Shown here: positions 30,455-47,954 of the stretch, in pieces | Numbering within the stretch: the first letter of the stretch is position 1 | Layout of the letters: each line of letters opens with the position of its first letter | DNA from: Streptomyces showdoensis | GTDB lineage: Bacteria > Actinomycetota > Actinomycetes > Streptomycetales > Streptomycetaceae | Assembly (NCBI RefSeq): GCF_039535475.1 | Contig: NZ_BAAAXG010000021.1 | Coordinates: 10,481 to 74,480 of the forward strand | Length of the DNA: 64,000 bases | Reading direction: 5' to 3' | The notes under the pieces: model-generated | What the model saw: the letters and a program-made list of their open reading frames with translations, nothing else | Databases searched by the model: none | What the model was told of the DNA's origin: nothing | Translations under genes and position numbers: made by a program

Positions 30455-30497
30455 GGCTTGCTTCTCCTCCTTGCCCGATGGCGTCACCGTGGGGGTG

Positions 30498-32149: not shown

Positions 32150-32892
32150 CTTCGGGAGAAATCGGCCAGGCGCCGGCAGGAAGACATGACGGAAGAAGAG
32201 CGCTCAGAGACCCCCCACCGTCCCCGCGCGTGGTCACCGCCTCCTCCAGGGCAGATGACTGCCCTCGGCGGGGTGCGAGGGCTGAAGGACGGCCGACCGT
32301 CTGAGGGTGTGGTGCGGGAGGGACGGGGGCCGGGTCTGGGTCGCTTCAGTCCGTACCAGCCGCATTCGGCACCCGTGCGGTCCATGACCACGGTCACGAG
32401 TCGGATGGCCGCCCGTTCCAGGTGCCAGCTGCGATCCTCGGCATTCGCTCCGCTGGATGGAGCCAACCGCTCGAACCGCTCAGCCAACTCCTCCAGCCAG
32501 TCGCGCCATTCCAGCAGCGACGCGACCACTTTGGCGGCCGTTGCTGCGGGCCCACCCATGGAATGGGAGGTGCAGCACCAGTGGGTGACGACGCCACCGC
32601 CGCCACCCTCGCCGACCGCCCAATGCCAGCCGCAGGTCCATCGGCCGTATCGGGCGGCCAGGAGCGCCGTGACCTCGGTGGTGAAGCGATGTTTGTCTTC
32701 CCACCCGGCATCGTCAGGAGGCACCATCGAGGCGATCACCGTGGTGATCTCGGATGCCTCCGCTTCGTCCCAGGCGAAGGCGATGCGGTCGGGATCGACG
32801 GCAGACCACGGCAGCCAGGCCGGAGCGAGCTCGTAGTTGATAGCCGTGGTGTTCCTCCAGAACCAGGCACGGTAGGACAACCGGGCGATCAT
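32104..32892 (-). CDS. Hypothetical protein with altered C-terminus
   Basis: ATG at 32892. The first about 180 residues look natural (MIARLSYRAWFWRNTTAINY, ELAPAWLPWSAVDPDRIAFA, ITTVIASMVPPDDAGWEDKH, ASLLEWRDWLEELAERFERL, RAAIRLVTVVMDRTGAECGW). After about 32350 the composition becomes Arg/Pro/Ser-rich, so the original C-terminus seems lost and the frame runs on to 32104. Trp-rich with a poly-Gly loop (VGEGGGGGVVTHW). No family named. Confidence 0.55.
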   Translation of the reverse strand: MIARLSYRAWFWRNTTAINYELAPAWLPWSAVDPDRIAFAWDEAEASEITTVIASMVPPDDAGWEDKHRFTTEVTALLAARYGRWTCGWHWAVGEGGGGGVVTHWCCTSHSMGGPAATAAKVVASLLEWRDWLEELAERFERLAPSSGANAEDRSWHLERAAIRLVTVVMDRTGAECGWYGLKRPRPGPRPSRTTPSDGRPSFSPRTPPRAVICPGGGGDHARGRWGVSERSSSVMSSCRRLADFSRRWTFRCFCIRLRSGG

Positions 32893-33174
32893 GCCAAAAG
32901 CTCGTAGCCTCTGCACGCAAATTTCTGGCACACCCCTCACCCACCTGGGCCCACAGCGCGACACTGCCTGGCCATCTGCCCCGCCCGATACGGCACTCCA
33001 CTGAGCACGTTCACTTGTACGTGGGTGAGCACTTCGAGAAATACGCCGGCAGGAGTGCACGCGGCTGATGCCGTCCGGCGTCCAGCAGCAGCTCGCCTTC
33101 CTCCGGGAGCACCACTCGGCTCGGTGGAGTTGCTGGCTACGTCGGTGCGGCATGAGGCTCATTTGACTGCTGTC

Positions 33175-34003
33175 ACTGAGCTCTTTCCAAGCTGGCGGTA
33201 CCTGTGAGCCTCACAGATCGTCTGTTCACCGCCCCCGCGTGGTGAGCAGCTTGATCTGTCCAGCCGCACCTTGCGGTTCCTGACCGGACGGCTGGAGGCC
33301 AGGCGGCGGGAGATCGGGACGCGTTGGCGACGCCTTCCCGCCTCGCGACAGGCTCTGCTCGCCCTGGCCCACCTGCGATGCGGTGACACCTACGCCCAGC
33401 TGGCCGCCGGGTTCGGCGTCGGGATCGCGACCGCCTACCGATACATACGCGAAGCCGTCGAGGCCCTGGCAAGCCTTGCCCCGTCCCTGGCCGAGGCGAT
33501 GCGGACGATCCGGGAGAAGGCGTTCGTCATCCTCGACGGCACCCTGCTGCCGATCGACCGCATCGCCGCCGACCCCCCCCCATTACTCCGGGAAGCACAA
33601 GCGCCACGGCATGAACGTGCAGGTCCTCACCGATCCGCTCGGACGGCTGCTCTGGGCCTCGCCGGCTCTGCCCGGCTCGACCCACGACCTGACCGCCGCA
33701 CGGCAGCACGGGATCATCGAAGCCCTCGCCGAAGCAGGACTCAGATGCTGGGCGGACAAGGCGTACCAAGGCGCCGGCAACCCCGTCCTCGTACCGTTTC
33801 GGGGCCGGCTCCTCAAACGGTGGAAGCGCCGCCACAACACCACCCACGCCAAGATCCGCTGCCTCGGCGAGCAGGCCACGGCCACCCTGAAGGGCTGGCG
33901 TCTCCTGCGGAAGCTCCGCTGCAGCACCAACCGAATCACCGACGTGGTGAAGGCCGTCCTCGTCCTTCACCACGCGTCAGCGTGAGGTTGGAAAAGGCTC
34001 AGT
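33175..34003. mobile_element. IS5-family insertion sequence (829 bp)
   Basis: Imperfect terminal inverted repeats: ACTGAGCTCTTTCCAAGCT at 33175-33193, and AGGTTGGAAAAGGCTCAGT at 33985-34003, 16 of 19 positions complementary. They enclose one transposase, frameshifted in the middle. The element sits directly before the IS110 element. Confidence 0.7.
33208..33985 (+). pseudogene. IS5-family transposase (DDE_Tnp_4 type) with a frameshift at a C9 run
   Basis: The N-terminal frame reads LDLSSRTLRFLTGRLEARRR, LRCGDTYAQLAAGFGVGIAT, AYRYIREAVEAL and AFVILDGTLLPIDRIAAD with the first catalytic Asp. At nine consecutive C (33573-33581) the family sequence moves to another frame: YSGKHKRHGMNVQVLTDPLG, LPGSTHDLTAARQHGIIEAL, CWADKAYQGAGNPV, CLGEQATATLKGWRLLRKLR and a normal end VLVLHHASA. 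Family members read D-R-P-[H/Y]-Y-S-G-K at the joint, so one extra C explains the break. Everything else is intact. Confidence 0.85.
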
Positions 34004-34026
34004 AATTAGAGGTCCTGGATCTCTGA

Positions 34027-34338
34027 TGGGCCCGGGGCGGCGTTGTTCAGCCCGGGGCAGGACGTGTGTGGTCCGGTCGGTGCCGTGGTGACCCCTACGA
34101 CACCTCCGACCGTGCGAGGCCTTTGTAAAGACTGGTGGCGCTGGGCGCCGGCCGGTCCTCGCACGTTCTGCCCCGCGGGCCCGTCGGGTTCGGGATCCTC
34201 GATGGATGAGCTGCCGCACGGTGACGCGTTTCTCCTCACGAGCTTCGAGCTCTGGACACGGCGTGCGCCCGTGCGGTCTGGCGGTGCCGCGCACGGCTGA
34301 TGAGGTGGCGGGCCTTGGAGCCCTGGAATTAGTGCGCC
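34027..34338 (+). ncRNA. Candidate IS110 bridge-RNA region
   Basis: The non-coding DNA before the IS110 transposase contains strong structure: a 9-bp stem CGTGCGAGG (34111-34119) / CCTCGCACG (34157-34165) around a 37-base loop with its own small dyads (CTTT..AAAG; GGCG..CGCC), plus two copies of GCCCGGGGC near 34029 and 34048. IS110-family recombinases use a structured bridge RNA made from their non-coding end to pick donor and target sites. The position fits; guide loops were not identified. Confidence 0.4.
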
Positions 34339-34392
34339 GTGCGGCCCCGCGTGCTCGCCTTCGAGATCAGCACCGGAGAAGGGGCGGGATTC

Positions 34393-35634
34393 GTGGACGT
34401 GTTCTGTGGGATCGACTGGGCGGAGGGACACCACGACGTCGCGCTCGTGGACGACACCGGCAAGCTGCTGGCCAAGTGCCGGATCAATGATGACTTGGAC
34501 GGCTACCGGCTGCTGCTGGACCTCCTGGTCGAGCACGGCGACTCCGCGGAGACGCCGATCCCGGTGGCCATCGAGACCAGCCGCGGCCTACTGGTCGCCA
34601 CGCTGAGGCAGGGCCCCCGGCAGATCTACGCCGCCAATCCGATGGCCGCCTCCCGCTACCGTGACCGGCACGGCGTCAGCCGCAAGAAGTCGGACCCAGG
34701 CGACGCCCTGGTGCTGGCGAACATCATCCGCACCGACGCTCCGATGCACCGCCCGCTGCCCGCCGACACCGACCTGGCCCAGGCGGTCGCCGTCCTGGCC
34801 CGCGCACAGCAGGACGCGGTCTGGAACCGCCAACAGGTCGCCAACCAGCTCCGATCCCTGCTCAGGGAATACTTTCCGGCGATGATCGAGGCCTTCCGGG
34901 ACAAACAGGGAACTCTGACCCGCCCCGATGCCCGCCGGATCCTGGCCGTCGCACCCACACCTGCCTTGGCCGCCAAGCTGCAGATGTGGAAGCTGACCGC
35001 CATGCTCCGGCGAGCCGGCCGCCGCCGCGGCATCGAAACCGACGCCGAACGAATCCAGCAGCTCTTCCGCGAGGAAGCCCCTCGGCAGCTGCCCCTCGTT
35101 GAGGACGCCATGGGCAAGCAGGCACAGGCCCTGCTCCTGCAGCTGGACGCGGCCTGCCAGGCGGTCGACGACCTGGCGCGGGCCACTGAGGAGGCCTTTC
35201 GCTCGCACCCGGACGCCTCGATCATGCTGAGCCTTCCCGGCATCGGCCCTCAGGTCGGTGCCCGCATTCTGGGCGAGATCGGAGACGACCGGACCCGGTT
35301 CGCCACGGCTGGTGGGCTGAAGGCTTACGCTGGCTCGGCCCCGATCACCCGGGCCTCTGGCAAGCGTCGCTATGTCGGCCGCCGGTTCGTGAAAAACAAC
35401 CGGCTCAACCACGTCGGCCACCTGTGGGCCTTCGCCTCCATCAGCGGTTCTACCGGGGCGGAGGCCCACTACCGGCGCCGCCGAGCGGGAGGGGACTGGC
35501 ACATGCAGGCACTGCGGCACCTGTTCAACCGGATGCTCGGCCAGTTCCACCACTGCCTCCTGGCGCGCACTCCCTTCGATGAATCGATCGCCTTTCCCAC
35601 ACAGCCGCTACGAGCCGGGACAGCCGCTAGGTGA
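34393..35634 (+). CDS. IS110-family transposase, apparently intact
   Basis: GTG at 34393 gives VDVFCGIDWAEGHHDVALVD, the usual N-terminus; the frame is open to 34339. About 413 residues. The DEDD RuvC-like N-terminal domain is complete: FCGIDWAEGHH (D), PVAIETSRGLL (E), YAANPMAASRYRDRHGVSRK then KSDPGDALVLANI (D..D). The C-terminal transposase_20 domain has SLPGIGPQVGARILGEIGDD and KAYAGSAPITRASGKRRYVG, with the conserved Ser expected in AGSAPIT. No frameshift was found, so this may be active. A structured leader (34027-34338) lies upstream, as expected for a bridge-RNA-guided element. Confidence 0.93.
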   Translation: MDVFCGIDWAEGHHDVALVDDTGKLLAKCRINDDLDGYRLLLDLLVEHGDSAETPIPVAIETSRGLLVATLRQGPRQIYAANPMAASRYRDRHGVSRKKSDPGDALVLANIIRTDAPMHRPLPADTDLAQAVAVLARAQQDAVWNRQQVANQLRSLLREYFPAMIEAFRDKQGTLTRPDARRILAVAPTPALAAKLQMWKLTAMLRRAGRRRGIETDAERIQQLFREEAPRQLPLVEDAMGKQAQALLLQLDAACQAVDDLARATEEAFRSHPDASIMLSLPGIGPQVGARILGEIGDDRTRFATAGGLKAYAGSAPITRASGKRRYVGRRFVKNNRLNHVGHLWAFASISGSTGAEAHYRRRRAGGDWHMQALRHLFNRMLGQFHHCLLARTPFDESIAFPTQPLRAGTAAR

Positions 35635-35792
35635 AATGAACGGGACAGCTCGTCCGGGGGCGGCCGAGCGACGACCACGCCCCTGAGACCCCAAGCGCAA
35701 ACGATCGCCGCCCGGCTCGTCGTCCCGTCCTCCGAGTGACCGCTGTCCAGCCCACACGATGAGGCGATACCGGAAGGTGCGACCATCGTCGG

Positions 35793-36524
35793 ATGCGAGG
35801 CATCGATGAACTGGTCAATGTGGAAGATCCGGCGTGGCCGGAGCTGCAGGGGGCTCTCAGGGCGAGCTCCGTGCCGGTCCACGTGCTGCCCGGAGACCCC
35901 AGTGAGAGCCGCCGGTGCCTTCTGCAGATGCAGGTCACCGCACGATCGGCGCTGGGCGCATTGGCCTTGCACACCGGCGGATTGCTCGTGGACAACGGGT
36001 GGCTGCGAGTGTTCGGCGGGGGTTCGGGTTCGGTCGAGGGTGGGCGGCTTCCGAGTCTGGCGCAGGTCAACCGCTTCCCCACGGACTTCGATCCCAATTG
36101 GCATCCTGCGACAGGCCTTGTCGTCGGCCACGACATCGTCGGAGGGGTCTTCGCGTTGAACGGTGGCGATCCTGCGGCCGCGGGCCGCCCCGGGGCACCT
36201 GGACAGATGACGTACTTCGCTCCCGACACTCTGGAGTGGGAGGCGATGGAGATGGGCCACTCCGGGTGGGTCTCCTGGCTGCTCTCGGGCAGGCTGGAGA
36301 CCTTCTATGACGGAACGCGCTGGCCCGGCTGGCGCGAGGAGGCCGAAGCCCTGGCTTTCGAGCAGGGCCTGTCCGTGTATCCGTTCCTGTGGTCCGAGGA
36401 AGCTCACGCCGATCTCGCAGCCACGAGTCGGCGACCTGTGCCGATGCGCGAGGTGCTGGGAGTCGCAGCGGACTTCGCCCGCCAGATGGGGCCGTCCGAT
36501 CCGGGGTTCCTGGGCGACCTGTGA
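35793..36524 (+). CDS. DUF2625-family protein (243 aa)
   Basis: ATG at 35793. The protein matches DUF2625 in layout: MRGIDELVNVEDPAWPELQG at the N-terminus, SALGALALHTGGLLVDNGWL, RVFGGGSGSVEGGRLPSLAQ, VVGHDIVGGVFALNGGD, then YFAPDTLEWEAMEMGHSGWV and TFYDGTRWPGWREEAEALAF. Function is unknown; members are soluble and widespread, with an SMI1/KNR4-like look. It appears complete and monocistronic. Confidence 0.82.
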   Translation: MRGIDELVNVEDPAWPELQGALRASSVPVHVLPGDPSESRRCLLQMQVTARSALGALALHTGGLLVDNGWLRVFGGGSGSVEGGRLPSLAQVNRFPTDFDPNWHPATGLVVGHDIVGGVFALNGGDPAAAGRPGAPGQMTYFAPDTLEWEAMEMGHSGWVSWLLSGRLETFYDGTRWPGWREEAEALAFEQGLSVYPFLWSEEAHADLAATSRRPVPMREVLGVAADFARQMGPSDPGFLGDL

Positions 36525-36929
36525 CTGGCTTCGCCGACCGTCCTGGTGCGTCAGCTTAGGCCCGGAGCTGGTCAACTCGGCCGATGTTGTGCGGGCGCGA
36601 TGGGGCGGCGATCACCCCACGGCTTGACGGCTTAACTGCATGAGGTGTCTTTGTACGCGTAGCCGTGCAAGGAGGTCTTCTCTCTCCAGGCCGGGGCGCG
36701 GCCGGCGGGGACCTCCACCGCCGGCCCTACGGCCGCGAGACGCTCTCGCGCAGGGCCCGCAGCCGCTCGATCGTCCCGTCCACGCCCCACACGGCGACCC
36801 CGCGCGCGGCGGTCGACAGGGCGAGGACGGTGGTCTCCTCGTCGTACGACAACCGCCGCCACGCCGCGTCGTCTGCCCGACTGCACCGAGTGCCGCCGCG
36901 AGGTCCAGCTCCGCGGTGAACGGCCCTGA
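36525..36929. other. 400-bp region with a minus-strand coding fragment
   Basis: A minus-strand frame ending at 36727 reads AWRRLSYDEETTVLALSTAA, RGVAVWGVDGTIERLRALRE then SVSRP and a stop. It has good coding character but no start or family, so it is probably the C-terminal remnant of a lost gene. Nothing else was recognised. Confidence 0.4.
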
Positions 36930-36965
36930 CGGTGGCCGCTTGCCCGGCCGGGCAAGCGGCCACCG
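36930..36965 (-). terminator. Perfect 36-bp palindromic hairpin
   Basis: CGGTGGCCGCTTGCCCGG followed by its exact reverse complement, 5 bases after the stop codon of the membrane protein gene at 36970. A strong terminator for the second secreted-protein unit; the first unit also ends in a perfect hairpin (22524). Confidence 0.75.
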
Positions 36966-36969
36966 GGGG

Positions 36970-37254
36970 TCAGCGTGTCCGGGTGGTCCGCCGCCGGGCT
37001 GTCTTCGGCGCGGTCCAGCGCACTGCGCCGAAGACGACCGCGGCGGCCAGGAGCCCGTACGCGGGGTGAAGGAAGGACAGCAGGATGCCGGCGCCCAGGC
37101 CATGGAAAGCAGCCCAAACGTTGGGGTGCTTGAGGATCAGCCGGTCGGTGGCCTGCCGGTCACGGCGGGCGCGCTGGTAGGCCAGGAGGGCGAAGTAGCC
37201 CGCCCAGCAGATCAGCAAGACCGCGTACAGGCCGTCGCTGGGGTTCCAGCGCAT
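36970..37254 (-). CDS. Small membrane protein, candidate partner/immunity protein (94 aa)
   Basis: ATG at 37254, with GGGGG upstream and only 19 bases after the stop of the secreted-protein gene. Two or three transmembrane segments: DGLYAVLLICWAGYFALLAY, then FHGLGAGILLSFLHPAYGLL and LAAAVVFGAVRW, with a basic tail RRRTTRTR. It is not evidently homologous to the 22197-22397 protein but occupies the same position next to the same kind of secreted protein. Confidence 0.7.
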   Translation of the reverse strand: MRWNPSDGLYAVLLICWAGYFALLAYQRARRDRQATDRLILKHPNVWAAFHGLGAGILLSFLHPAYGLLAAAVVFGAVRWTAPKTARRRTTRTR

Positions 37255-37273
37255 CGGACATACCCCCTGGTGA

Positions 37274-37744
37274 TCAGTAGCATCCCTTGGCGGCGCGCTT
37301 CTGGCGTTCCGGCTTCAGCGTCGGGCCGATGATCTTCAGCTTCACGCAGTTGCCCTCCTCGTAGTACCGGCCCGCCGCGATCGCGATGCCGCCGGCCTGG
37401 GCCGCGATCGGCATGCAGATACCGCCGGCGGCCGAGCACACAGCCGCCCCGAGAGCGACGATGTACCCCGCGTCCCGGGCGTTACGTGTCTCGTTGCGGT
37501 TCAGATACAGCGTCCCGGTCACGATCCCCCAGTTGAACTCCCAGTACGGAGTGATCTGAGGCGTCCCGCCAGGACCCGGAGCGGGCCCGGACGCCTCCCA
37601 CAGCGCCCCCTCAGGCAGTGCCCCCGGAGCAGACGAGGCCGGGGAGCCGGCGTCGGCCAACGCTGCCGGGGCAGCCCCCAGCAGGAGCGCCCCCGCAGTG
37701 GCCGCAGAGACCGCTGCGCAGAGGATGCGTCGGATTCGGTTCAT
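37274..37744 (-). CDS. Secreted Gly/Ala-rich protein, candidate bacteriocin-like effector
   Basis: ATG at 37744 after GAGGAG. The 156-residue precursor has a clear Sec signal peptide (RRILCAAVSAATAGALLLGA, likely cleavage after ALA). The mature region contains TPYWEFNWGIVTGTLYLNRN, ETRNARDAG, a Gly/Ala/Cys-rich hydrophobic stretch (YIVALGAAVCSAAGGICMPI, AAQAGGIAIAAGRYY), then NCVKLKIIG and a basic tail ending KRAAKGCY. Compared with the 21643-22197 product, both share strand-x-L-[S/N]-[K/R]-x-x-[A/T], a small-residue hydrophobic core, a Cys followed by alternating Lys/hydrophobic residues, and a final G-x-x-[K/G]-C-Y. Membrane activity is inferred. Confidence 0.72.
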   Translation of the reverse strand: MNRIRRILCAAVSAATAGALLLGAAPAALADAGSPASSAPGALPEGALWEASGPAPGPGGTPQITPYWEFNWGIVTGTLYLNRNETRNARDAGYIVALGAAVCSAAGGICMPIAAQAGGIAIAAGRYYEEGNCVKLKIIGPTLKPERQKRAAKGCY

Positions 37745-37839
37745 GTCTGGAGCTCCTCGTCGTAGGCGAAACGGACAGGTCGCGACCCGTACCCGTAGTG
37801 ACGGCCCGTCAGCAACCTCGCTCCAGAACAAGATCATGT

Positions 37840-38020
37840 GAGGTTCGGTCGTGATGTCACTGGGATGTTCGGCGTTCTACGTCACTGACGTGTAGACGTG
37901 TTCGTGCTGTTCAAGGGCTGCTAGATCGGTTGATCATGGTGGCAGTTCTCCGAGCGTTGCAGTGACGTGAAGCCGTATCGGCTGGTGTCACGTTCGCCGA
38001 ACCTCCTTTGTGATTACGGC
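37840..38020. other. Cluster of repeated TTCGGCG / ACGTCAC-type motifs
   Basis: GGTTCGGTCGTGATGTCAC (37852), TGTTCGGCGTTCTACGTCAC (37865), GCAGTGACGTGAAG (37958) and GTGTCACGTTCGCCGAACC (37987) are related in direct and inverted orientation. They lie upstream of the TnsB-like gene. Transposons of the Mu/Tn7/Tn5053 kind carry several transposase-binding repeats at their ends, so this could be a left end; the match is by eye only. The rest of the interval to 38336 holds no gene. Confidence 0.35.
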
Positions 38021-38336
38021 CTTGTCGCTTGGGGGGCTTCTTCCGCTGGAGATGGGCGCCTTCGGGCTGTGGACTGCGCTTGCGGTTCCTTGCTCCGCCC
38101 GGCGTGCTTTACGTAGCGCGTGCGGCGAGGGGGTGGGAGTGAAACGGATGGGTGTCACCCGTCGTGGTGATCGGCCGGGTGGTTGCCTGTGGTGCCGGAT
38201 CTAGTCTCACGTCAGGCACATCTTTCGCTCGGTCGCCTGGCTGGACTTCGCTATCTTGCAACGCCGTTAACTGCTGGAGGCTGTACGTGATCACCATGCC
38301 GTTATCCGCCCGCCCGCTTTACGGCTGCCGGCACCG

Positions 38337-39929
38337 GTGACGAGAGGGGATGTCGCCCCGGAGGCTGCGGAGGCGGGCTTGGGGCGGCATCGGGACGAGT
38401 TGCGGCCCGCTGCGGTGGCCCGGTTGCTGCAGCTGCGTGGGGCGGGGGAGCTGAGGACGGCGCATGTACGGCTGGTCGCCGAGTCAGTGGACGTCAGCGT
38501 GCGGCAGGTGTGGCGCTGGCTGGCCCGCGCGGAGGAGACGGGTAGCACGGAGAAGCCGGAGCGCAGGCGGTTCCGTATCACTGAGGAGATCATCGAAGTC
38601 CTCGCCGACCACCAGGGCAATGTGAAACGCGCTCACGAGTACCTGGTGCGCGTGGCCGAGGCGGCGGGGGAGAAGCCGGTCGGTCTGACCACGCTGCACG
38701 ACGCGATCGCCCGTGACCTGGACCCTGGTTTCATGGCGGGTCTGCGGGAGGGGATTCCGGCCGCCCGCGGCTTCGACCCCGCCTTCCATCGCCCGGCGGT
38801 GGCCCGGAACCAGGTGTGGGAGGGGGATCACAAGCAGGCTCCGCTCGTCGTGATGATGCCCGACAAGAAGCTGTCGAAGGTGTGGGTGACCTGGTTCGAG
38901 GACCGCGGTACCAGCTATGTGATGGGCTGGGCGGTCACCGCCGGCAGTGCGCACCGCGGCTCGGTCCTGGCGGCGGTGCGGGCTTCGGTCCTGCGGGAGG
39001 ATCCTTACGGGCCGGCCGGGGGACTGCCGCACCTGGTACGGGTCGACGGCGGTGCCGACTTCCTGTCCAAGACAGTCCGGCGGGCCTTCGGCCTGCTCGG
39101 TGTCCCTGCACACCGGGTGCGCAGCGCCCGCCACAAGGGCGGTGTCGAGCGGCTGAACCGAACCGGCGTGACCCGCTTCTTCGCCGACCTGCCCCGCTAC
39201 ACCAAGGCGCCCCTGCTCGATCACCGCCGCCGTGTCGGCGAGACGGACCCGCCGTTGACCTTCGAGGCATTCGTGGAGCTCCTGGGGGAGTGGGTCACCG
39301 AGCACAACACCCAGCACGTGGTGAAGCGCACCGGGCTGACGCCGCTGGAGGCGTGGCTGGCCGACCCGACCGAGATCCGTCCCGAGCCCACCCCGGCCGA
39401 GCTGCGCGCGTTCATGCTGGAGAGTGATCACCGGCTTCGGAAGATCACCAGCCACGGGGTGGAGTTCGCGGGCCGCTGCTACATGCCGGAAAACGGTGTG
39501 GGCCGCATCGGGGTCGAGGTACGGGTGCGGTGGATGCCGCACCACAGCCACGAGATCGACCTGTACACCTTCCGCGGGGACCGCTACCTGGGCCGGGCGT
39601 TCCTCAGTGACGAGGCCACGAAGGAGCTGCGCGCCAAGGTCCTTGCCGACCGCCGGGAGCACAGCGCTGAGCTGCGCCGGGCCCTCAAGCGCTCCGGTGA
39701 GCGCAGGCACGACCGTTATCTGCCGGCTACCGAACCCCAACTGCCTGTCTCTGCGACCCGCATGACCAAGGAAGAGGCGCTCGCCGAACTCGCGGGCCCC
39801 AGCCGGTCAGCGCCTGCCGCGCCTCGCCGGCGCGTGGAGCCGTATCAGCCTTTGACGCCCGTCCCAGCCGGCTGGGTGCGCCCCGGCCAGGCCACTGCCC
39901 CCGCCGATCCGTCTTCGGAGGACGCATGA
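38337..39929 (+). CDS. Mu/TnsB/TniA-type DDE transposase
   Basis: GTG at 38337, 530 residues. An N-terminal HTH (about 40-66, HVRLVAESVDVSVRQVWRWL) is followed by the rve/RNase-H-like catalytic core with D164 (NQVWEGDHKQAP), D237 (LVRVDGGADFLSKTV) and E271 (RHKGGVERLNRTG), the D,D-35-E spacing of this superfamily. A Mu-type C-terminal beta-barrel is visible around 370-430 (ITSHGVEFAGRCYMPENGVG, GVEVRVRWMPHHSHEIDLYT). The C-terminal tail is Pro/Ala-rich. Its stop overlaps the start of an ATPase gene by four bases (ATGA), the gene order of TnsB-TnsC or TniA-TniB. It should catalyse strand transfer of an element whose ends are unproven. Confidence 0.9.
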   Translation: MTRGDVAPEAAEAGLGRHRDELRPAAVARLLQLRGAGELRTAHVRLVAESVDVSVRQVWRWLARAEETGSTEKPERRRFRITEEIIEVLADHQGNVKRAHEYLVRVAEAAGEKPVGLTTLHDAIARDLDPGFMAGLREGIPAARGFDPAFHRPAVARNQVWEGDHKQAPLVVMMPDKKLSKVWVTWFEDRGTSYVMGWAVTAGSAHRGSVLAAVRASVLREDPYGPAGGLPHLVRVDGGADFLSKTVRRAFGLLGVPAHRVRSARHKGGVERLNRTGVTRFFADLPRYTKAPLLDHRRRVGETDPPLTFEAFVELLGEWVTEHNTQHVVKRTGLTPLEAWLADPTEIRPEPTPAELRAFMLESDHRLRKITSHGVEFAGRCYMPENGVGRIGVEVRVRWMPHHSHEIDLYTFRGDRYLGRAFLSDEATKELRAKVLADRREHSAELRRALKRSGERRHDRYLPATEPQLPVSATRMTKEEALAELAGPSRSAPAAPRRRVEPYQPLTPVPAGWVRPGQATAPADPSSEDA

Positions 39930-40723
39930 CCACCACCGCCGCCACTTCTGCCGCGCCGCCCGAGTCGGGGCCGCCGCGCCGTCCGGATCTGCGCCCGCAG
40001 TTCTTCCTCGGCCTTAAGGACTCCTCACTGGTCGCCACCGACACGCTGCTGCAGATCAAGGACACCGTCGTCGACACCGTCGAATCGCGGGCCATGTCGG
40101 TGATCTACGGCGACGCGGGGCTGGGGAAGAGTTTCGGCACCCGGGCCACGATCCAGGAGATGAACCCAGATCTGATCCTCCCGCTGGACTTCGCTCGTTC
40201 CCGCCCGGGGCCGAAGGACCTGCGCGAGGAACTGTTCCACCAGATGAATCTGTCCTGCAAGATGCCGGGGACGCCGACCGCGTTCGACAAGCTGCTGCGC
40301 GAGACGCTGCCCCGGCGCCCGTATGTGATCGTGTGTGACGAGGCCCAGCAGTACCGGCGGGAGAACTTCGAGTTCCTGCGCAAGCTGTGGGACACCTGCG
40401 ATCCCAAGCCTGCCATCGTCTTCGTCGGAGGCCGAGAGGCGTACGAGACGCTGCAGAGCGACCCGGCGCTGGCCTCGCGGATCTATATCCGCCTGGAGAT
40501 TCCGGCGATGAGGGAGGACGAGGTCCTCAAGGTCGTGCCCGACTCCCACCCGGTATGGAAAGGCGTACAGGAGGCGTTGCTGAAGCGGGTCGACACCCAG
40601 TACGCGCTCGGGTCCTTCCGTGAGTGGGCGAAGGTCACCAAGCACGTGATCAAAGGCATGGAGCACTTCAAGGCCGACAACGTCGACGACCGCATCGTGG
40701 ACTGGGCCCTGAACCGTTGCTGA
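39926..40723 (+). CDS. TnsC/TniB/MuB-like AAA ATPase
   Basis: ATG at 39926 within the ATGA overlap; 265 residues. The Walker A motif (YGDAGLGKSFGTR, about 61-73) and Walker B (RPYVIVCDEAQQYRRENFEF, acidic pair about 138-139) are clear, with sensor-like IVFVGGREAYETLQSD. It matches the target-selection ATPases that pair with Mu/TnsB-type transposases and bind DNA as filaments, delivering the transposase to target DNA. The C-terminal helical part (SFREWAKVTKHVIKGMEHFK) is typical for the family. A zinc-binding N-terminus is not evident. Confidence 0.88.
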   Translation: MTTTAATSAAPPESGPPRRPDLRPQFFLGLKDSSLVATDTLLQIKDTVVDTVESRAMSVIYGDAGLGKSFGTRATIQEMNPDLILPLDFARSRPGPKDLREELFHQMNLSCKMPGTPTAFDKLLRETLPRRPYVIVCDEAQQYRRENFEFLRKLWDTCDPKPAIVFVGGREAYETLQSDPALASRIYIRLEIPAMREDEVLKVVPDSHPVWKGVQEALLKRVDTQYALGSFREWAKVTKHVIKGMEHFKADNVDDRIVDWALNRC

Positions 40724-41535
40724 CCACTGCGCTGGCTGTTCAGAGTGCCGCCGCTGCGCCGGACCTCTTCGATGCGATGGGACACGCTGCCCCGACAGGT
40801 CTGCACTTCCTTGGCACCCCAGGTCTGCGCACGTTGCTCACCCCGGGCCTGCTTGCCGTGGGCGATGCGCTCGCCGACGCCTACGCCAAGGGCCGGTTCG
40901 TGTGCGTGCTGGGACAGGCCGGGGTCGGCAAGACCTTCGCCGTCCACACTGCCGCACGCCGCCTCGGCGAGCTGCTGCCCCTGGACCTTCGTGCTCAGCC
41001 GTCACCGGCAGACCTGCGTGACGCCCTCCACGAGGCACTGAGGCTCCCCGGCCAGGCGCCTGCCGACCCCGCCCCTGCCGACACGCTGATCCGCCGCGCC
41101 CTCGCGCAGGGGCCGCGGATTGTCGTGGTCGAGGACGCCCACCGGCTGTCACCGTCGTGCTGGGAGTATCTGCGATTCCTGCACGACGAGCTCTCCCAGG
41201 GGCTGTGCGTGGTCCTGACCGCCCCGGCGTGCGGCGAACGCTTCCTGCGTGCCCAGCGGATGCTCGCCACCCGCACGACGAGCTGGCTCTGTGTGCAGCC
41301 GCTCACCCGCGACCGCATTCCGCAGGCGGTTCCCGCCTTGCATGCGCTGTGGCAGGGCGTCGCGCCCGGTGACCTCGACGCACTCGACGCCCGATGTGCC
41401 GGCGGCGTGCTGCGCCGGTGGGCTGTGCTGACCCGGCACACCCAGCGGGCGATGGCCGCCCACGGGGCGAAGAAGCCAGACCGGGTCATGCTGCAGGCTG
41501 TGGCCGACCGAGCCGACGGCGGACGGCGCCCGTGA
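40717..41535 (+). CDS. Second P-loop ATPase of the transposition module
   Basis: The TTG at 40717 overlaps the previous gene's end; ATG at 40777 is the alternative start. About 272 residues. Walker A is RFVCVLGQAGVGKTFAVHTA and Walker B is GPRIVVVEDAHRLSPSCWEY, followed by GLCVVLTAPACGERFLRAQR. It resembles TniB/MuB-like ATPases but differs strongly from the first ATPase, so it is a paralogous or heteromeric partner rather than a recent duplicate. Two distinct ATPases in one Mu/Tn7-like operon are unusual. Its end overlaps the next start (GTGA). Confidence 0.78.
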   Translation: MLTTALAVQSAAAAPDLFDAMGHAAPTGLHFLGTPGLRTLLTPGLLAVGDALADAYAKGRFVCVLGQAGVGKTFAVHTAARRLGELLPLDLRAQPSPADLRDALHEALRLPGQAPADPAPADTLIRRALAQGPRIVVVEDAHRLSPSCWEYLRFLHDELSQGLCVVLTAPACGERFLRAQRMLATRTTSWLCVQPLTRDRIPQAVPALHALWQGVAPGDLDALDARCAGGVLRRWAVLTRHTQRAMAAHGAKKPDRVMLQAVADRADGGRRP

Positions 41536-42968
41536 CCGCACCCAAGTTCAGCAGCATCGCCCGGACGAGGGCGGAAAGCCGGCCGATGCCGGCGACTTCT
41601 GTGAAGCGGCCGGTCCGACTCCTCCTGGACACCGACGACGACCACGCGGTCGACCGGTCCGCCCACCAGTGGGCGGACCCCGCCCGCCGACGCATCACCG
41701 TCGAACCCACCCCGCACACCACCAGCCCGGCCCACCTCGCACTGGACGTCTTGCGCGCCATGGGCCGTGAAGGGTACTTCCGCCCGGAGGCGGAGCGAAT
41801 GTCCACCAACCCGGCCTGGCGCGCGGTGACCTGCTGGACCCTGACCACCGGCATACGCGACGTCATCGTGCTGCGTGCTCACCGCCTGAGTGCTGAACGC
41901 CTGCGCCGGCTGGCCGTCTGGGTGGCACAGACCGGCATCCGCCTCACGCTCCTGGCGCACACCCCGCAGCGGGATGGCGAGCGGAGCCTGCTCGAGCACC
42001 TCACAGCCGCCGGTCTCGACCCCCAGGTGGCCGCACGCGGCACGACCTGTGTCCTCGACGCGATCGGCCCGGCCGCCGGCCGGCGCACCGGCTCCCCACC
42101 GCACGATCACACCTACCGGCTACCGCCGTTGCCGCACAGCCCGGTGCCCGTCTTCCGCGAGGACTGCCGGCGCCGCCTGAACCCAGCCGACTTCGCCCAC
42201 ACCGACGGCCAATACCGCGCCGGCTACGCAGCCGCCCGCACCTGGCTGGCCCGGACCCAGCCACCCCGCCCCGAGAACACCCCGACCACCAGCCGCCGCG
42301 ACGAGCGCACCCCTTTCAGCCTCCAGCAGACAGAAGCCCTGAGGCTGTTCCTTGCCCGCCTGACCGTCTCAAGCCCCAGCCCCCAGCACACCCTGGCCCG
42401 CGTCCGAGGAGCCCAGGCAGGCTTCCTCTCCCGCTCCACTCTGCTCGACGTACCCCACGACCTCACCACCCGCACAGGCCCCGGCATCACCACCAAGCCC
42501 CTCACCCCGCAAACCGTGCACACGATCACCACGCGCCTGCCCAACCCCCTGCGCGCCGCCGCGATCGCCGCCCTGCTGTTCACCGGCACAGACACCTCGC
42601 TGCTCTCCATGACCCAGACCGCAGGCATCGAACACGCCCACAGCACCTTGGCCATCGACCGCGACTCCCGCATCAACATCGGCGAACCACCCGGCCCCCG
42701 CCACATGTACGCCGTCCCACCCCGCGCACGCCCCCTGCTGCAGACAGCCGTCGCATTCCGCCGCCGCACCCCGCGCACCTACGACCACCACGGCCTGTTC
42801 GCGAACTGTTTCGGCACCACCCCACGCTTCGAGGCCCTCATCGCCGACGTCGGCCTCCCGATCCCCGCCCTGGCCCGCCACGCCGGGGACGATTGGCACA
42901 CCGCCACCCACGCCTGGCATCTGCACACCCCCGCGCCGCGCACTTCTGACTTCCCTGCGCCCTTTTGA
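41532..42968 (+). CDS. Unrecognised fourth protein of the transposition module (478 aa)
   Basis: GTG at 41532 overlaps the upstream stop by four bases. It occupies the place where TniQ or TnsD would stand, but the zinc-finger cysteines and N-terminal L-P-x-R-P-x-P pattern of TniQ are not seen. The N-terminal part (VRLLLDTDDDHAVDRSAHQW) precedes a middle region (LRRLAVWVAQTGIRLTLLAH). The C-terminal half, NPLRAAAIAALLFTGTDTSL then LSMTQTAGIEHAH and HAGDDWHTATHAWHLH, loosely recalls a tyrosine-recombinase core with its catalytic residues not evident. Possible target-site factor; function unknown. Confidence 0.6.
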   Translation: MTAPKFSSIARTRAESRPMPATSVKRPVRLLLDTDDDHAVDRSAHQWADPARRRITVEPTPHTTSPAHLALDVLRAMGREGYFRPEAERMSTNPAWRAVTCWTLTTGIRDVIVLRAHRLSAERLRRLAVWVAQTGIRLTLLAHTPQRDGERSLLEHLTAAGLDPQVAARGTTCVLDAIGPAAGRRTGSPPHDHTYRLPPLPHSPVPVFREDCRRRLNPADFAHTDGQYRAGYAAARTWLARTQPPRPENTPTTSRRDERTPFSLQQTEALRLFLARLTVSSPSPQHTLARVRGAQAGFLSRSTLLDVPHDLTTRTGPGITTKPLTPQTVHTITTRLPNPLRAAAIAALLFTGTDTSLLSMTQTAGIEHAHSTLAIDRDSRINIGEPPGPRHMYAVPPRARPLLQTAVAFRRRTPRTYDHHGLFANCFGTTPRFEALIADVGLPIPALARHAGDDWHTATHAWHLHTPAPRTSDFPAPF

Positions 42969-43195
42969 AAGTCCTCGGGTGACCGAGCCCCGACGCTCCG
43001 CCCGTCCACAACCGCAGTGTGTGCCTTCGTCAGTGGACTGCACAGGGCCCTCCGGCTTACCGGGCAACGTCGCAGCACCCGGGGTTCTCGCCGGGGGACC
43101 GCCGCTGACGGCGCTCGTCGGTCTGTGCTCGTTGTTGTGGTGCAGCCGGGACGGCGTGCCCGCCTGGGTCACCCGGAAGGGGGTAAAGCAAAGGC

Positions 43196-43220
43196 TAAAT
43201 CTGTAGGTAAATCTGTTAGG
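43196..43220 (+). promoter_or_regulatory. Tandem direct repeat just upstream of tap
   Basis: TAAATCTGTAGG (43196-43207) is followed at once by TAAATCTGTTAGG (43208-43220), ten bases before the tap start codon at 43230. AT-rich in GC-rich surroundings, so a likely promoter/operator, possibly for Tap autoregulation through its own HTH. Confidence 0.5.
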
Positions 43221-43229
43221 TTCTGGGGT

Positions 43230-45452
43230 ATGCCGACTCAGGATGAGCTGTTCGATGCGGTGGATGCGTTGCTGGCCGGGGAGCCGGAGATGCCACCGCC
43301 GGCGGAGCGGGCGCGGCTGCGTGAGGCGGCCGGGGTCACGCAGGCGCGGCTCGCGCAGGTCCTGGAGACCAGTACGCAGACGGTGAAGAATTGGGAGGCG
43401 GGCCGCAGCGAGCCACGGCCCCCGCGCCGCGCGCCGTATCAGCGTCTGCTGGAGGGATGGGCGCAGAAGTATCCCGCCCCCGCCCCGGAGGCGTCCACCA
43501 CCCCGGTTCAGCAGCCGCCAAGGCTCGAGGAACCATGCGCCCCGGCGCCGGAGACGCCCCCGGCCCCGACACCTGCTGCTGCGGCACCCGGACAGCCCCG
43601 CAGGCTCGAAGCAGCACCCAGCCCGGCGGCTACAGCTCGTCCAACGGCATTGCGGCGCCCGGGCGCGAAGAAGGCCGCCGCTTCGAAGCCCGTGACCGCC
43701 GCGCCCCCCGCCTCCGATCCGAGGTTTGTGCATGGCCCGCTGGCCGTCATCGACGTCGATGACGAGGGTCAGGTTCTCGCGTACTGCGTGGGCGGTCTGG
43801 TCCTGGACGTGCCCGCGAAGACACTGCCCTCGCTGGTGGAGTGGACACTGACCGAAGCACAGGTGGGTGCGCAGCGGCTGAACGGCTCGGGTAAGGACGC
43901 CGACCCGCTGCTCGTCCTCACGAAAACCGCCCTGGAGCGCTTCGGCCTGCCCGCCGAGCTCACCGACCAGGAACGCCTGGCCGGCCGCCTGCCCGACGCC
44001 CACAAGGCGATCGCCCAGCTGACGCGGGAGCAGTGGCAGCTCACGAAACGCGGTCTCGGCCCCTGGGCACGGATCTACCGCCCCGCCCAGGGCGGCCGCC
44101 GTTCCTGCGTCCAGCTGTGCATCCCGTCCTGGAACGCGCTCGACACCCGCAGCTGGGGCCACGCCGCGGACCTCCCCCCTGCCGAACTCGCCTCCGTTCT
44201 CGGTACATACGCCACCCGGGTCATGACCCCCCGAGGATCCACCGCCGTCACCGGCCTGGAGCTGATGACCGCCCTCCACCCACCGACCCGGGCCTCCGCC
44301 CCGGACGAGACGGGCAAGCGGCACAGCGAGCACAACCCCGGCTCCCTGGGCAAGGAGCCGATGGACCCGGCGCCGTGCGAGGCGACCGACGGCCACCCCG
44401 TCCTCTCCCACCTGCCCCGCTTCCACGTCCGGACCCCGGCCGAGAAACTCTTCGAGGAGGCCTACGACTGGGCGCGCCCGCTCACCGACGACGAGTGCAT
44501 GAAGCGTCATCTCGTCGGCATCGACGTGAACATGGCCTTCGCCGCCAGCGCCAACGGCGCGGTCGTCGGCCTCGCCACCCCGCCCGTCCACGTCACCCAC
44601 CCCGTCTTCGACGCGAAGACACCCGGCTCGTGGCTGGTCGACCTCTCCCACGTCGACCTGTCCCGCGTGCAGGTCGGCAAGCAGTGGCACACCCTCGACG
44701 GCGATCTCCTGCCCAGCCCGTTCACTCCGACCGGCAAGCGTCCCGAAGGGCCTGCCTGGTACGCGACCCCGACCGTCGCCTACGCCGCCGAACTCGGCTA
44801 CGACGTCGCCCCCACCGAGGCCTTCATCCGCACGGAATCGGGCCGTTACCTCGACGGTTGGTACAAGCGGCTGCGCGACGCTTATGTGTCGACGATGGCC
44901 GACCTCGGCGTCACCGAGAACCTGACACCACCACAACTGCTCGCGGCGATGGACGGCTACAAGCGGCGCGACCCGCAGGCGGCGATCGTCCTGGACGCGA
45001 TCAAGTCGACGGTGAAGAACGGCATCGGGAAGTTCCAGGAGAAGGCACGCGGAGGAGGCTGGCGGCCGGGACAGCCCTGGCCGGCTCTCACCCGCCCGAC
45101 GTGGCGCCCGGACATCCGCGCCGCCGTGATCTCCCGCGCCCGGATCGGCATGCACCGCAAGATGGTGGCACTGGCCGCCGCCGCCGGCCGCTACCCGGTC
45201 GCTGTGCTGTCCGACTGCGCCGTCTACGCCGCCGACGGACCCTCACCACTCGACGTCCTGCCCTACGACGACGCCGGTAAGACGGTGCCCGGGTCGTTCC
45301 GGCTCGGAGTGTCACCCGGAATGGTCAAGCACGAAGGCACCCAGACGACCCTGTGGGCCGAAGAGCTCCGCGAGCGCGTCCAGGCACCGGAGCTGAACCT
45401 GGCCCGCTACATCAAGACCGGCGACGTCACCACCGCCGACACAGGGGAGTAG
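43230..45452 (+). CDS. tap: Telomere-associated protein Tap
   Basis: ATG at 43230, 740 residues, the usual length of Streptomyces Tap. Tap binds the 3' overhang of linear replicon telomeres and recruits the terminal protein for end patching. An N-terminal XRE-type HTH is evident (RLREAAGVTQARLAQVLETS, TQTVKNWEAGRSEPRPPRRA), then a low-complexity Pro/Ala linker (about 80-165). A large conserved domain follows (FVHGPLAVIDVDDEGQVLAY; LGPWARIYRPAQGGRRSCVQ; HLVGIDVNMAFAASANGAVV; DRGRYL-type YLDGWYKRLRDAYVSTMADL), ending YIKTGDVTTADTGE. Only 10 bases separate it from tpg, the normal tap-tpg operon. Confidence 0.92.
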   Translation: MPTQDELFDAVDALLAGEPEMPPPAERARLREAAGVTQARLAQVLETSTQTVKNWEAGRSEPRPPRRAPYQRLLEGWAQKYPAPAPEASTTPVQQPPRLEEPCAPAPETPPAPTPAAAAPGQPRRLEAAPSPAATARPTALRRPGAKKAAASKPVTAAPPASDPRFVHGPLAVIDVDDEGQVLAYCVGGLVLDVPAKTLPSLVEWTLTEAQVGAQRLNGSGKDADPLLVLTKTALERFGLPAELTDQERLAGRLPDAHKAIAQLTREQWQLTKRGLGPWARIYRPAQGGRRSCVQLCIPSWNALDTRSWGHAADLPPAELASVLGTYATRVMTPRGSTAVTGLELMTALHPPTRASAPDETGKRHSEHNPGSLGKEPMDPAPCEATDGHPVLSHLPRFHVRTPAEKLFEEAYDWARPLTDDECMKRHLVGIDVNMAFAASANGAVVGLATPPVHVTHPVFDAKTPGSWLVDLSHVDLSRVQVGKQWHTLDGDLLPSPFTPTGKRPEGPAWYATPTVAYAAELGYDVAPTEAFIRTESGRYLDGWYKRLRDAYVSTMADLGVTENLTPPQLLAAMDGYKRRDPQAAIVLDAIKSTVKNGIGKFQEKARGGGWRPGQPWPALTRPTWRPDIRAAVISRARIGMHRKMVALAAAAGRYPVAVLSDCAVYAADGPSPLDVLPYDDAGKTVPGSFRLGVSPGMVKHEGTQTTLWAEELRERVQAPELNLARYIKTGDVTTADTGE

Positions 45453-45462
45453 GACACCAAAG

Positions 45463-46023
45463 ATGACCAAGTCCGTTGGCGAGGGACTCAACAACGCACT
45501 AGAACAAGCCGTCACACGCCCAGCACCCAAGAGCCCGGGCGTCCAGATGCGCTACCTGGTCAAGCAGCTGAAAGGAACCAAGGCCGCAGCCCAAGCCCTC
45601 GGGATCTCCCAGCGCACCGTCGAGCGGTACATCAAGAACCAGCTCAAAAAACCGCGCCCGGACCTCGCCGCCCGACTGTCCAGCGAGGTGAAAAAGCGGT
45701 GGCAGCCCCGCGTGAAGGCGCAAGCGAAGAAGACCGCCGGCACGAGCAGCGGCCTCGTCATCGACGTCCAGGGCCGCCTCGGCTACAGCGCGCCCGTCGG
45801 CACCACGGACGAGGCACGCGAACGCCACCTCACCGTAGCGCTGCCGCCGCGCTTCGCCGAGCGCCTGTTCACAGCGCAGGAGCAGGGCGCCTCTGAGAGC
45901 CAGCTCCAGCAGATCGCTGCCGAAGGACTCAAGGAGACCTACTTCCAAAACCATGGGACGCGGGCCGGGAGCCTGGAGGAAGTGCATCTGTTCGACGTCC
46001 AGCACATCGAGTTCGGCCTCTGA
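45463..46023 (+). CDS. tpg: Telomere terminal protein Tpg
   Basis: ATG at 45463, 186 residues, the family's normal size. Tpg is covalently attached to the 5' ends of Streptomyces linear DNA and primes telomere end-patching. The sequence matches throughout: MTKSVGEGLNNALEQAVTRP, the HTH LKGTKAAAQALGISQRTVER then YIKNQLKKPRPDLAARL, KKRWQPRVKAQAKK, LVIDVQGRLGYSAPVGTTDE and a C-terminal VHLFDVQHIEFGL. Follows tap in one operon. Its presence indicates that the replicon is linear or that a telomere-replication module has been inserted here. Confidence 0.93.
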   Translation: MTKSVGEGLNNALEQAVTRPAPKSPGVQMRYLVKQLKGTKAAAQALGISQRTVERYIKNQLKKPRPDLAARLSSEVKKRWQPRVKAQAKKTAGTSSGLVIDVQGRLGYSAPVGTTDEARERHLTVALPPRFAERLFTAQEQGASESQLQQIAAEGLKETYFQNHGTRAGSLEEVHLFDVQHIEFGL

Positions 46024-46174
46024 CCATCCCACCACAGGACGAGGCACCGCCCCGGCAACTGAACCGCAGCGCGAGAGGCGCCGCCAAGACAGGCCCGTGG
46101 TCACAGGATGGTGGCAGTCAGCGGAACCGCACTTCGCACCGAAGAATCCCCCTTGGGGAGAAGAGCTACTCTCC

Positions 46175-46208
46175 TTGCCTAGCATGACCGTGCGTAACTA
46201 TAGTTACG
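46175..46208 (+). promoter_or_regulatory. Promoter with -10 box inside a perfect 16-bp palindrome
   Basis: TTGCCT (46175-46180), 18-bp spacer, TATAGT (46199-46204). The -10 box is the centre of the palindrome CGTAACTATAGTTACG (46193-46208). The GTG start at 46215 is 11 bases after the -10, so the transcript would be leaderless or nearly so. A repressor bound to the palindrome would cover the -10. Confidence 0.65.
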
Positions 46209-46214
46209 CCAATC

Positions 46215-47441
46215 GTGACACAGAAGATGCCGCACTCCGCGGCCGGCCAGATGGTCGGATACCTCTACCAGTGCGAATGGGCCCTGGTGGAACTGGCCCG
46301 CCGATGGTTCAGGGACCCGCAGACCGAGCTCCGCATGGAGATGCTCGACGACATCGACCTCCTCCGCCACGGCACGCCGGTCGAGCTCGTCCAGTCCAAA
46401 CACCACGGACACGCCGGCGAACTGGGGTCCACCAGTGCCGACCTGTGGCGTTCGATCAACTCCTGGTGCGACGCGCTCGAACACCTGCCGGCGGGGCAGC
46501 TTCCCATGCTCAGGCTCGTCACCACACAGACTGTCTCGCCCGGCAATGTTCTGGCCAAACTCAGACACGACGCCCGGGATGTCACCGCTGCACTGGCAGA
46601 ACTCGAGGCCATCGCCGGCGATCCCGACGGCGCCAAAACCACATTGCCCTGGCGATCCCGGTTCATGGCCTGCACCGCTTCGACGCGCGCTGCCCTCGTG
46701 GGCGCCATCGTCCTCGACGATTCCGCGCCGCGAGTGTCAGAGGTGGACTCTACGCTGCGCGAAGTGATCGGAATCTGGAAGAACGACGAGCAGAGCCAGG
46801 CGATCCTCGAGGAACTGAAAGGCTGGTGGTGGAACGTGTCCCTCGACATGCTCGACCACACCAATCCCGGCCGGCGCATGTCCGTCAGCGCCGAGGAACT
46901 GCGCACTCAGATCGACTACGTCTCCGGCAAGTACACCCACACCGCCCTGCCCGTCGTCGACAGCCTCGACGACCTCACCGAGCAGGAGATCGCCCAGTAC
47001 ACCGGCCACGTCTTCGTCGAACAGCTCAAGCTGATCGGCCTCGGCAACCGCAGCATCCGCGCCCACATCGGCGAGTACCACCACGCCTGGGCCCACCGCT
47101 CACGCTGGCTCTACCACCATCACGTCACCCCCGGGGAACTCACCCAGTTCGACAGCGACCTGCGCCAGGAATGGAACCTCATCTTCGCCAAGTACGCCGA
47201 CCGCTTCGATGCCGGCAAAGAAGGCGACGACGCCCAGGCCGTCGGCGAGACCATCCTCGACGCCACCCTCACCGCGGCGCAGGACATCAAACTCCGCCAG
47301 CTCGGCAAACGGTGGATCGCCCGCGGCACCCTGCACGCACTCGCCGACAACGCCCGCAACGAACCCAAGCCGCTGGGCTGGCACCCCCACTTCGAGGACC
47401 TGCTCAAGACACCCCCGCGCACGCAGACGAAGGGGGAGTAG
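46215..47441 (+). CDS. ABC-three-component (ABC-3C) system effector with nuclease-like N-terminus
   Basis: The GTG at 46215 fits the leaderless promoter (ATG at 46227 is an alternative); no ribosome binding site is present. The N-terminus resembles Cap4/DUF4297-type restriction-endonuclease-fold domains: GQMVGYLYQCEWALVELARR, then MEMLDDIDLLRHG and VELVQSKHHG, giving the D45/D46...Q60-x-K62 catalytic pattern. The rest is alpha-helical (QIDYVSGKYTHTALPVVDSL; GHVFVEQLKLIGLGNRSIRA; GEYHHAWAHRSRWLYHHHVT; RQEWNLIFAKYADRFDAGKE), as in ABC-3C C-terminal domains. Together with the middle component and DUF3732 ATPase it forms a complete ABC-3C unit, proposed to sense foreign nucleic acid and cut DNA. 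Confidence 0.82.
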   Translation: MTQKMPHSAAGQMVGYLYQCEWALVELARRWFRDPQTELRMEMLDDIDLLRHGTPVELVQSKHHGHAGELGSTSADLWRSINSWCDALEHLPAGQLPMLRLVTTQTVSPGNVLAKLRHDARDVTAALAELEAIAGDPDGAKTTLPWRSRFMACTASTRAALVGAIVLDDSAPRVSEVDSTLREVIGIWKNDEQSQAILEELKGWWWNVSLDMLDHTNPGRRMSVSAEELRTQIDYVSGKYTHTALPVVDSLDDLTEQEIAQYTGHVFVEQLKLIGLGNRSIRAHIGEYHHAWAHRSRWLYHHHVTPGELTQFDSDLRQEWNLIFAKYADRFDAGKEGDDAQAVGETILDATLTAAQDIKLRQLGKRWIARGTLHALADNARNEPKPLGWHPHFEDLLKTPPRTQTKGE

Positions 47442-47444
47442 CAC

Positions 47445-47933
47445 ATGACCACCACCCAGCTTCCTGAAGCAGCGGCCCTCCTCAACCCTGCTTTCGGCGC
47501 CTACATCCTCAGCCACAGTGCTGCCGCGTACGCCGCAGCCGCCACCGAGCCGGAATCCCATCTGCCCTGGCCGTCCGCGTTCCTGGTCCTGCCGCTGGTC
47601 CTGCCCCCCGACTCCCGGAGCGCCCTGCCGCGAGACACCCGCACCCAGCTCGCCGGATGGCTGGCAGACAACACCATGATCCGCGCAGCATTCCCTCAGC
47701 GCGCACCCGCTCTGCACGCCTACACCCAAGGCTGTATCCGCTTCGGCATCCGCCACGGCACCCTGGCGCTGACCGGAGGCGGCCTGCGGGCCACCCGCAA
47801 ACCCGCGAAGCCCGACTCGTCACAGCCCGCCGGCGAAGCCGCCACCTGCGTACGCGCCGCGGTTCTCGTGGGCCGCTGGTTCGCCGCGACAGACACCGCC
47901 ACCCTCTTCACGCTGCTGGGCGTAAGGCCCTGA
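47445..47933 (+). CDS. ABC-3C system middle component
   Basis: ATG at 47445, three bases after the effector's stop. The 162-residue helical protein (AALLNPAFGAYILSHSAAAY, FLVLPLVLPPDSRSALPRDT, RTQLAGWLADNTMIRAAFPQ, ALHAYTQGCIRFGIRHGTLA) is typical of the small middle proteins that connect effector and SMC-like ATPase in ABC-3C systems. The N-P-A-F/L-x-A motif and conserved L-P-x-x-x-R region fit. No catalytic motif; an adaptor role is expected. Confidence 0.82.
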   Translation: MTTTQLPEAAALLNPAFGAYILSHSAAAYAAAATEPESHLPWPSAFLVLPLVLPPDSRSALPRDTRTQLAGWLADNTMIRAAFPQRAPALHAYTQGCIRFGIRHGTLALTGGGLRATRKPAKPDSSQPAGEAATCVRAAVLVGRWFAATDTATLFTLLGVRP

Positions 47934-47954
47934 CCCGACAAAGGACCCTGCCCC

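Follow-up and report, generated by a model that had tools for sequence, protein, structure and literature searches.

A probable telomeric transposon of the Mu/Tn7 kind, with one specific end and an unusual AAA+ trio, in Streptomyces showdoensis

RESULTS

A predicted transposition operon upstream of tap-tpg

We analysed a 64,000-nt stretch of Streptomyces showdoensis contig NZ_BAAAXG010000021.1 (the window; coordinates are positions in it), in which a predicted Mu/Tn7-like transposition operon is directly followed by the telomere genes tap and tpg and very probably belongs to a telomeric transposon. The four operon genes all lie on the + strand. The first, tnsB (38337..39929), encodes a DDE transposase with a Mu-type C-terminal domain. 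The second (39926..40723) encodes a MuB/TnsC/TniB-like AAA+ protein, ATPase 1, with intact Walker A and Walker B (CDEAQ) motifs, and the third (40717..41535) a paralogous AAA+ protein, ATPase 2, in which Walker A is intact and Walker B reads ED, not DE. The fourth (41532..42968) encodes a 478-aa protein, p4, with an AAA+-like domain lacking a P-loop and a C-terminal part whose fold may resemble that of tyrosine recombinases. The genes, their coordinates and their 4–7-base overlaps are as described in an initial annotation of this DNA: tnsB and ATPase 1 overlap at ATGA, ATPase 2 starts at a TTG (40717) 7 bases inside the end of ATPase 1, and p4 starts at the GTG of a GTGA at 41532, overlapping the end of ATPase 2 (41535).

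The Pfam models Mu-transpos_C and TniB were matched by TnsB and ATPase 1, respectively, each narrowly over the cutoff. The catalytic residues proposed earlier (D164, D237 and E271) align with the DDE motif of ShCAST TnsB (8rdu) and are invariant in all 19 aligned TnsB sequences; together with the Pfam match to the Mu-type C-terminal domain, this bears out the proposed transposase. An ATPase 1 profile matched MuB (E = 2.7e-5), ShTnsC (0.0025) and then Rab GTPases (0.007), while ATPase 2 is 28.5% identical to ATPase 1 over 228 residues. Two features of Tn7-like transposons are present in the operon: a TnsB-type DDE transposase and, in ATPase 1, a TnsC-type AAA+ regulator. None of the four operon proteins matched Pfam TniQ. 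Searches of the S. showdoensis genome with PF06527 (TniQ) and PF08722 (TnsA) returned nothing and are uninformative, because the controls gave no match either. Judged by homology, by which the functions of the operon proteins were assigned, the gene set is a predicted Mu/Tn7-like transposition operon.

Conservation of the operon and more distant relatives

p4 was sought in one genome per species, which gave 17 loci, and gene order at these loci was determined by tblastn. All four genes were found in the same order at 16 of the 17, which marks them as a conserved unit and not a chance arrangement; the exception (L020) has only p4 and a split ATPase 2. Among 392 sampled genomes of the genus, 82 match some part of p4, 17 of them nearly full length. 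At 14 of the 17 loci there is, ~1 kb downstream of the operon, a gene homologous to the p4 N-terminal part. The window is without this gene and has tap-tpg in its place; at other loci tap lies elsewhere between the operon and the contig end, or was not detected. The tap-tpg neighbourhood pointed out in the initial annotation therefore holds for the window, and does not hold as a fixed part of the operon. On an S. cellulosae plasmid (L030, 16610-18507), p4 is followed by a 247-aa protein and by a 385-aa protein with a p4-like N-terminal part, neither of which has a Pfam match at E 0.01, and plasmid pSSP121038 has a third ATPase at the corresponding place after p4.

Four more distant plasmid loci, from Nocardia, Rhodococcus (two) and Paenarthrobacter, carry TnsB, one ATPase and p4, with no ATPase 2. 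The two-ATPase composition is thus found in this clade and not in these relatives. Since the distant loci keep p4 without ATPase 2, p4 appears to be a core component and ATPase 2 looks like an added copy in this clade. Inverted repeats flank the TnsB-ATPase-p4 genes at three of the four loci (both Rhodococcus loci and that of Paenarthrobacter), with the right repeat directly after p4; no convincing inverted-repeat pair was found on Nocardia pNF1. No 5-bp duplication was found at the inverted pairs of these distant relatives, whose termini are not base-exact. A further gene set (L092, NZ_CP108847.1, 10328-18839), comprising a 42% identical TnsB, one ATPase and a 399-aa protein with a p4-like N-terminal part, lies 7 kb from a linear plasmid end and is followed by a terminal helicase; it is probably another family of the same kind.

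p4 is a pseudo-AAA+ protein

The 478-aa protein, initially given no description, can be described as a pseudo-AAA+ domain joined to a possible recombinase-like domain. The first, at approximately residues 24-172, has the AAA+ fold of the MuB/TnsC group, and a Walker A P-loop (GxxxxGK[ST]) was found in 0 of 69 p4 sequences and in 0 of 20 aligned sequences; it is a MuB/TnsC-like pseudo-AAA+ domain without a P-loop. For the C-terminal part (residues 325-459), a tyrosine-recombinase-like fold is possible. The suspicion that p4 might be an unrelated fragment can be set aside, because at least 91 database proteins, its own sequence included, match it at E 0.001 or better. When p4 was compared profile to profile with the two ATPases, the probabilities were only 2.3 and 0.3. 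A Foldseek comparison with viral models had no hit with E ≤ 0.001, and its top integrase entry stood at 0.026.

A single end upstream of tnsB

Upstream of tnsB, a block of ~175 bp begins at one base (window 37837, 500 bp upstream of tnsB), and the sequences outside it are wholly different. The transposon end defined in this way from junctions, a profile match and a motif map (TGTGAGGTTCGGTCGTGATGTCACTGGGATGTTCGG..., ~175–180 bp, 37837..38016, + strand) carries a TGTCACTG-containing motif in direct and in inverted copies. The end profile matches the window at E 4.6e-47. The end is present from base 1 or 2 at 15 of the 17 loci and partial at L012; it was not found at L020, nor in the element of genome G148.

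The position of a junction was taken as the start of the end profile or, in genome G333, as the start of the shared sequence. Loci L008, L010, L016 and L086 (<100 bp of flank; start at or ≤3 bp from the end) were dropped before counting, and the remaining 36 junctions were reduced to 30 distinct ones by merging six duplicates. Mean pairwise identity among these is 0.288 over the 50 bases outside, approximately the chance level at 70% GC, and 0.685 over the 50 bases inside. Positions 1-12 (TGTGAGGTTCGG) are each common to at least 27 of the 30 junctions. Eight of the 30 cut or abut tap or terminal-helicase genes. The contigs of L008, L010 and L016 start at or within 3 bp of the end, as assemblers are expected to break at a repeat whose copies have different flanks. 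A comparison of copies, suggested in the initial annotation as a way to find element ends and target duplications, thus yielded the former and no instance of the latter. A 5-bp overlap on pSSP121038 (8140 versus 8145) was considered as a duplication and rejected, as it is not a clean repeat.

In NZ_CP030074.1 (L031, 20244-20198, − strand), bases 1–47 of the end recur in partly decayed form 7.5 kb interior of the current end, perhaps as a trace of an earlier capture.

Position on replicons and the telomere side

Assembly quality allowed position to be judged in nine of the 17 genomes with full-length p4, which together hold 19 copies of the element. All but one of the copies (18/19) lie 7–83 kb from a contig end and read toward that end. 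The earlier suggestion of a transposon that targets, or is carried with, linear replicon ends is upheld: the element travels with such ends and has often inserted there. Two genomes have the same element on both chromosome and plasmid, with differing flanks.

The telomere as the other boundary was found in one relative (G049), where both chromosome tips share 11,645 bases that run from telomere palindromes to the TGTGAGG end; its element contains tnsB, the two ATPases, p4, other open frames and a terminal helicase. A second end was sought in seven telomere-side stretches (11.6–27.7 kb) and none was found, with no further profile match better than E 0.5; the one end was detected in all seven, at E 3e-37 or better in six and at 3e-5 in the seventh. 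The pair of inverted ends with a target duplication that marks Tn7-like transposons was not found here. Eleven two-copy replicons were examined, and in 5 of these the stretch common to both copies begins no more than 5 bp from the end; NZ_CP109250, another S. cellulosae plasmid with two places, is not among the 11. In the window, the element lies in a terminal inverted repeat (30205..64000, no strand assigned) defined by contigs C21 and C8, which are 99.67% identical up to both contig ends.

As judged from these comparisons, the end is precise, and the element sits near replicon tips, reading outward, and can be present on both arms and on several replicons of one cell. Because three of the four distant loci look two-ended, one-endedness looks like a feature of the telomeric clade.

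DISCUSSION

A telomeric transposon and its alternatives

We consider it very probable that the element is a telomeric transposon of the Mu/Tn7 kind, with one sequence-specific end (37837) and its other side bounded by a telomere. Several observations weigh against this. The telomere of the window is absent from the assembly, so that the right boundary is taken from relatives. The terminal repeat of the window begins at 30205, 7.6 kb inward of the transposon end at 37837; repeats likewise extend inward of the end in 5 of the 11 two-copy replicons, and in a sixth (G148) no end was found. No telomere gene lies within 3 kb of 19 of the 30 junctions, the window's included, although this is a raw count with no matched random baseline. 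Flanks read by eye gave no target duplication between inner junctions of one replicon. No empty site for the window junction was found in 150 genomes; the best non-self matches cover the first 380 of 1537 flank bases only, the rest being short and scattered. Three of the nine genomes (G219, G056 and G377) are single-copy, and the opposite contig-end stretches that were compared share nothing. Finally, of the two copies in G333 one is terminal and the other lies 1.83 Mb inside a contig (G333:C1, ~1828853-1835057), its end and operon next to a run of N; the internal copy is perhaps a scaffold join at a telomere.

The window copy itself might be decayed, an immobile remnant that serves only the host telomere. 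This is compatible with a telomeric transposon as the explanation for the family, and in its favour the gene that follows p4 at 14 of the 17 loci is missing from the window and the element's tap-tpg is the only pair detected over cutoffs. On the other hand, the four frames are open, the end, the DDE residues and the Walker motifs of ATPase 1 and ATPase 2 are all intact, and in relatives several replicons of a single genome hold nearly identical copies. We regard decay of this copy as unlikely.

Alternatively, an ordinary two-ended Tn7-like transposon could have landed in a terminal inverted repeat, its right end since diverged beyond recognition. The two-ended appearance of three of the four distant loci with the same core, with a right repeat just after p4, would fit, as would a terminal repeat longer than the element. 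Set against this, no second end was detected in the seven telomere-side stretches in which the one end was readily seen, shared sequence starts at the end in 5 of 11 replicons, and 18 of 19 copies are outward-reading near contig ends, which makes a two-ended element very improbable. That homologous recombination or break-induced replication between telomeres swapped the ends, with the operon a passenger and the transposase uninvolved, has a precedent in the telomere replacement and recombinational repeat homogenisation proposed for a Streptomyces population (PMC7205883) and could account for the repeats that reach inward of the end, but is the most improbable of these alternatives, because recombination would give scattered, homology-based break points and the border falls at one element base with outer flanks at chance identity.

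For the telomeric transposon, we propose that TnsB would pair two ends from two telomere-bearing copies, which may lie on sisters, on opposite arms or in a fused telomere pair, and that TnsB, guided by ATPase 1 together with p4 and ATPase 2, would join these paired ends to the target at a site close to another telomere. Of the target, the piece on the origin side would then gain a new telomere and the distal piece would be lost. Such pairing predicts no duplication common to both arms, and none was seen. In this scheme ATPase 1 would be the target-binding ATPase of MuB/TnsC type, and the TniQ position would fall to p4, joined in this clade by ATPase 2, as an adaptor or a selector of targets. 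The inverted repeats may afterwards be extended or made uniform by recombination. A more tentative extension, which we think somewhat less likely than its opposite, is that the three proteins form a mixed AAA+ target-selection assembly, in which an active MuB/TnsC-like subunit, a subunit with a swapped Walker B and the P-loop-less p4 would cooperate, p4 using a dead recombinase-like domain to sense telomere-bound DNA or a telomere-protein complex. The element might on that account home to other telomeres and displace tap and helicase genes, and host telomere maintenance might in some strains be run by the invader.

Relation to known systems

Telomeric transposons reportedly use a Mu/Tn7-type transposase, occur on linear replicons including those of Streptomyces, are bounded by one specific end on one side and by the telomere on the other, and transpose with two ends brought together through telomeres. 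Two of these features are seen here, one specific end and Mu/Tn7-like transposition genes beside it, and the telomeric boundary is seen in the relative G049. On these defining features the element is assigned to the published class; its AAA+ trio is unusual. Hsieh et al. (2025, Science 387:eadp1973, as cited in PMC12669027 and PMC13228271) published this class, and the view in the initial annotation that no such system had been described therefore fails for the class.

Like Tn7, Tn5053 and Mu, the element combines in one operon a TnsB-type DDE transposase with a Mu C-terminal domain and a MuB/TnsC/TniB-type ATPase. Unlike them, it has one detected end, no Pfam TniQ match in the operon, and a second ATPase plus the pseudo-AAA+ p4. 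The TnsF protein of Tn6022 and Tsy carries zinc fingers at its N terminus and has TniQ as an interaction partner (Faure et al. 2023, PMC10293859); going by that description p4 is distinct, with an AAA+-like domain and an operon that gave no Pfam TniQ match. A type I-E5 CRISPR-associated transposon has been linked to telomeric transposons (PMC12669027). No CRISPR genes were noticed inside the element, though no search was aimed at them. On a small plasmid (L033, NZ_CP027025.1, 147-8217), type I-E cas genes lie ~11 kb interior of a copy of the element's end. In the Streptomyces population of PMC7205883, too, telomere and terminal-protein genes are exchanged together and a plasmid-type telomere is found on chromosome ends; unlike here, that work discusses recombination, and the words transposase and transposon were not found in its main text.

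The analysis provides 30 junctions and an element end defined to the base for a transposon that would move telomeres between replicons. Such movement is a concrete mechanism by which Streptomyces chromosome ends could turn over and by which inverted repeats could come to begin at one fixed sequence. A P-loop-less AAA+ protein in the TniQ slot makes telomere target choice directly testable.

Telomere genes, cargo and neighbouring features

The genes directly after the operon are tap (43227..45452, +; NF047542, 1097.6 bits against a cutoff of 600), encoding a telomere-associated protein, and tpg (45463..46023, +; NF047541, 270.4 bits against 90), encoding a terminal protein. The tap start codon was chosen within a frame open from 43017. 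In the S. showdoensis genome, tap and tpg pass the curated cutoffs only as the two copies in the element, making it a transposon that carries its host's only tap-tpg detected over these cutoffs. On these profile matches, the element can carry the only full tap-tpg detected in a genome, and it can take over host telomere upkeep. A tap gene over the curated cutoff lies between operon and contig end in 6 of 10 chosen genomes; the tap search matched 4 of 14 control genomes, none over the cutoff. Neither tap nor tpg passes the cutoff in G049, G295, G342 and G333, so other proteins must serve there and tap-tpg is not an obligatory part of the element. At L080 (G377), a tap-tpg pair of another type lies ~0.8–3.0 kb interior of the junction, giving two telomere modules in a row.

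Directly downstream of tpg and within the terminal repeat, PADLOC identified Lamassu-like defence genes (46215..49901, +), namely lmuA (46215-47441, +; 5.8e-51), lmuC (47445-47933, +; 3.1e-05) and lmuB (47955-49901, +; 2.8e-112), which are likely to be cargo of the element. Outside the element, a perfect 36-bp palindrome (36930-36965) lies ~0.9 kb from the transposon end, and a seemingly short 160-aa Ku-domain protein (Pfam Ku; 28847-29329, − strand) is encoded 0.9 kb to the interior of the terminal repeat's inner border.

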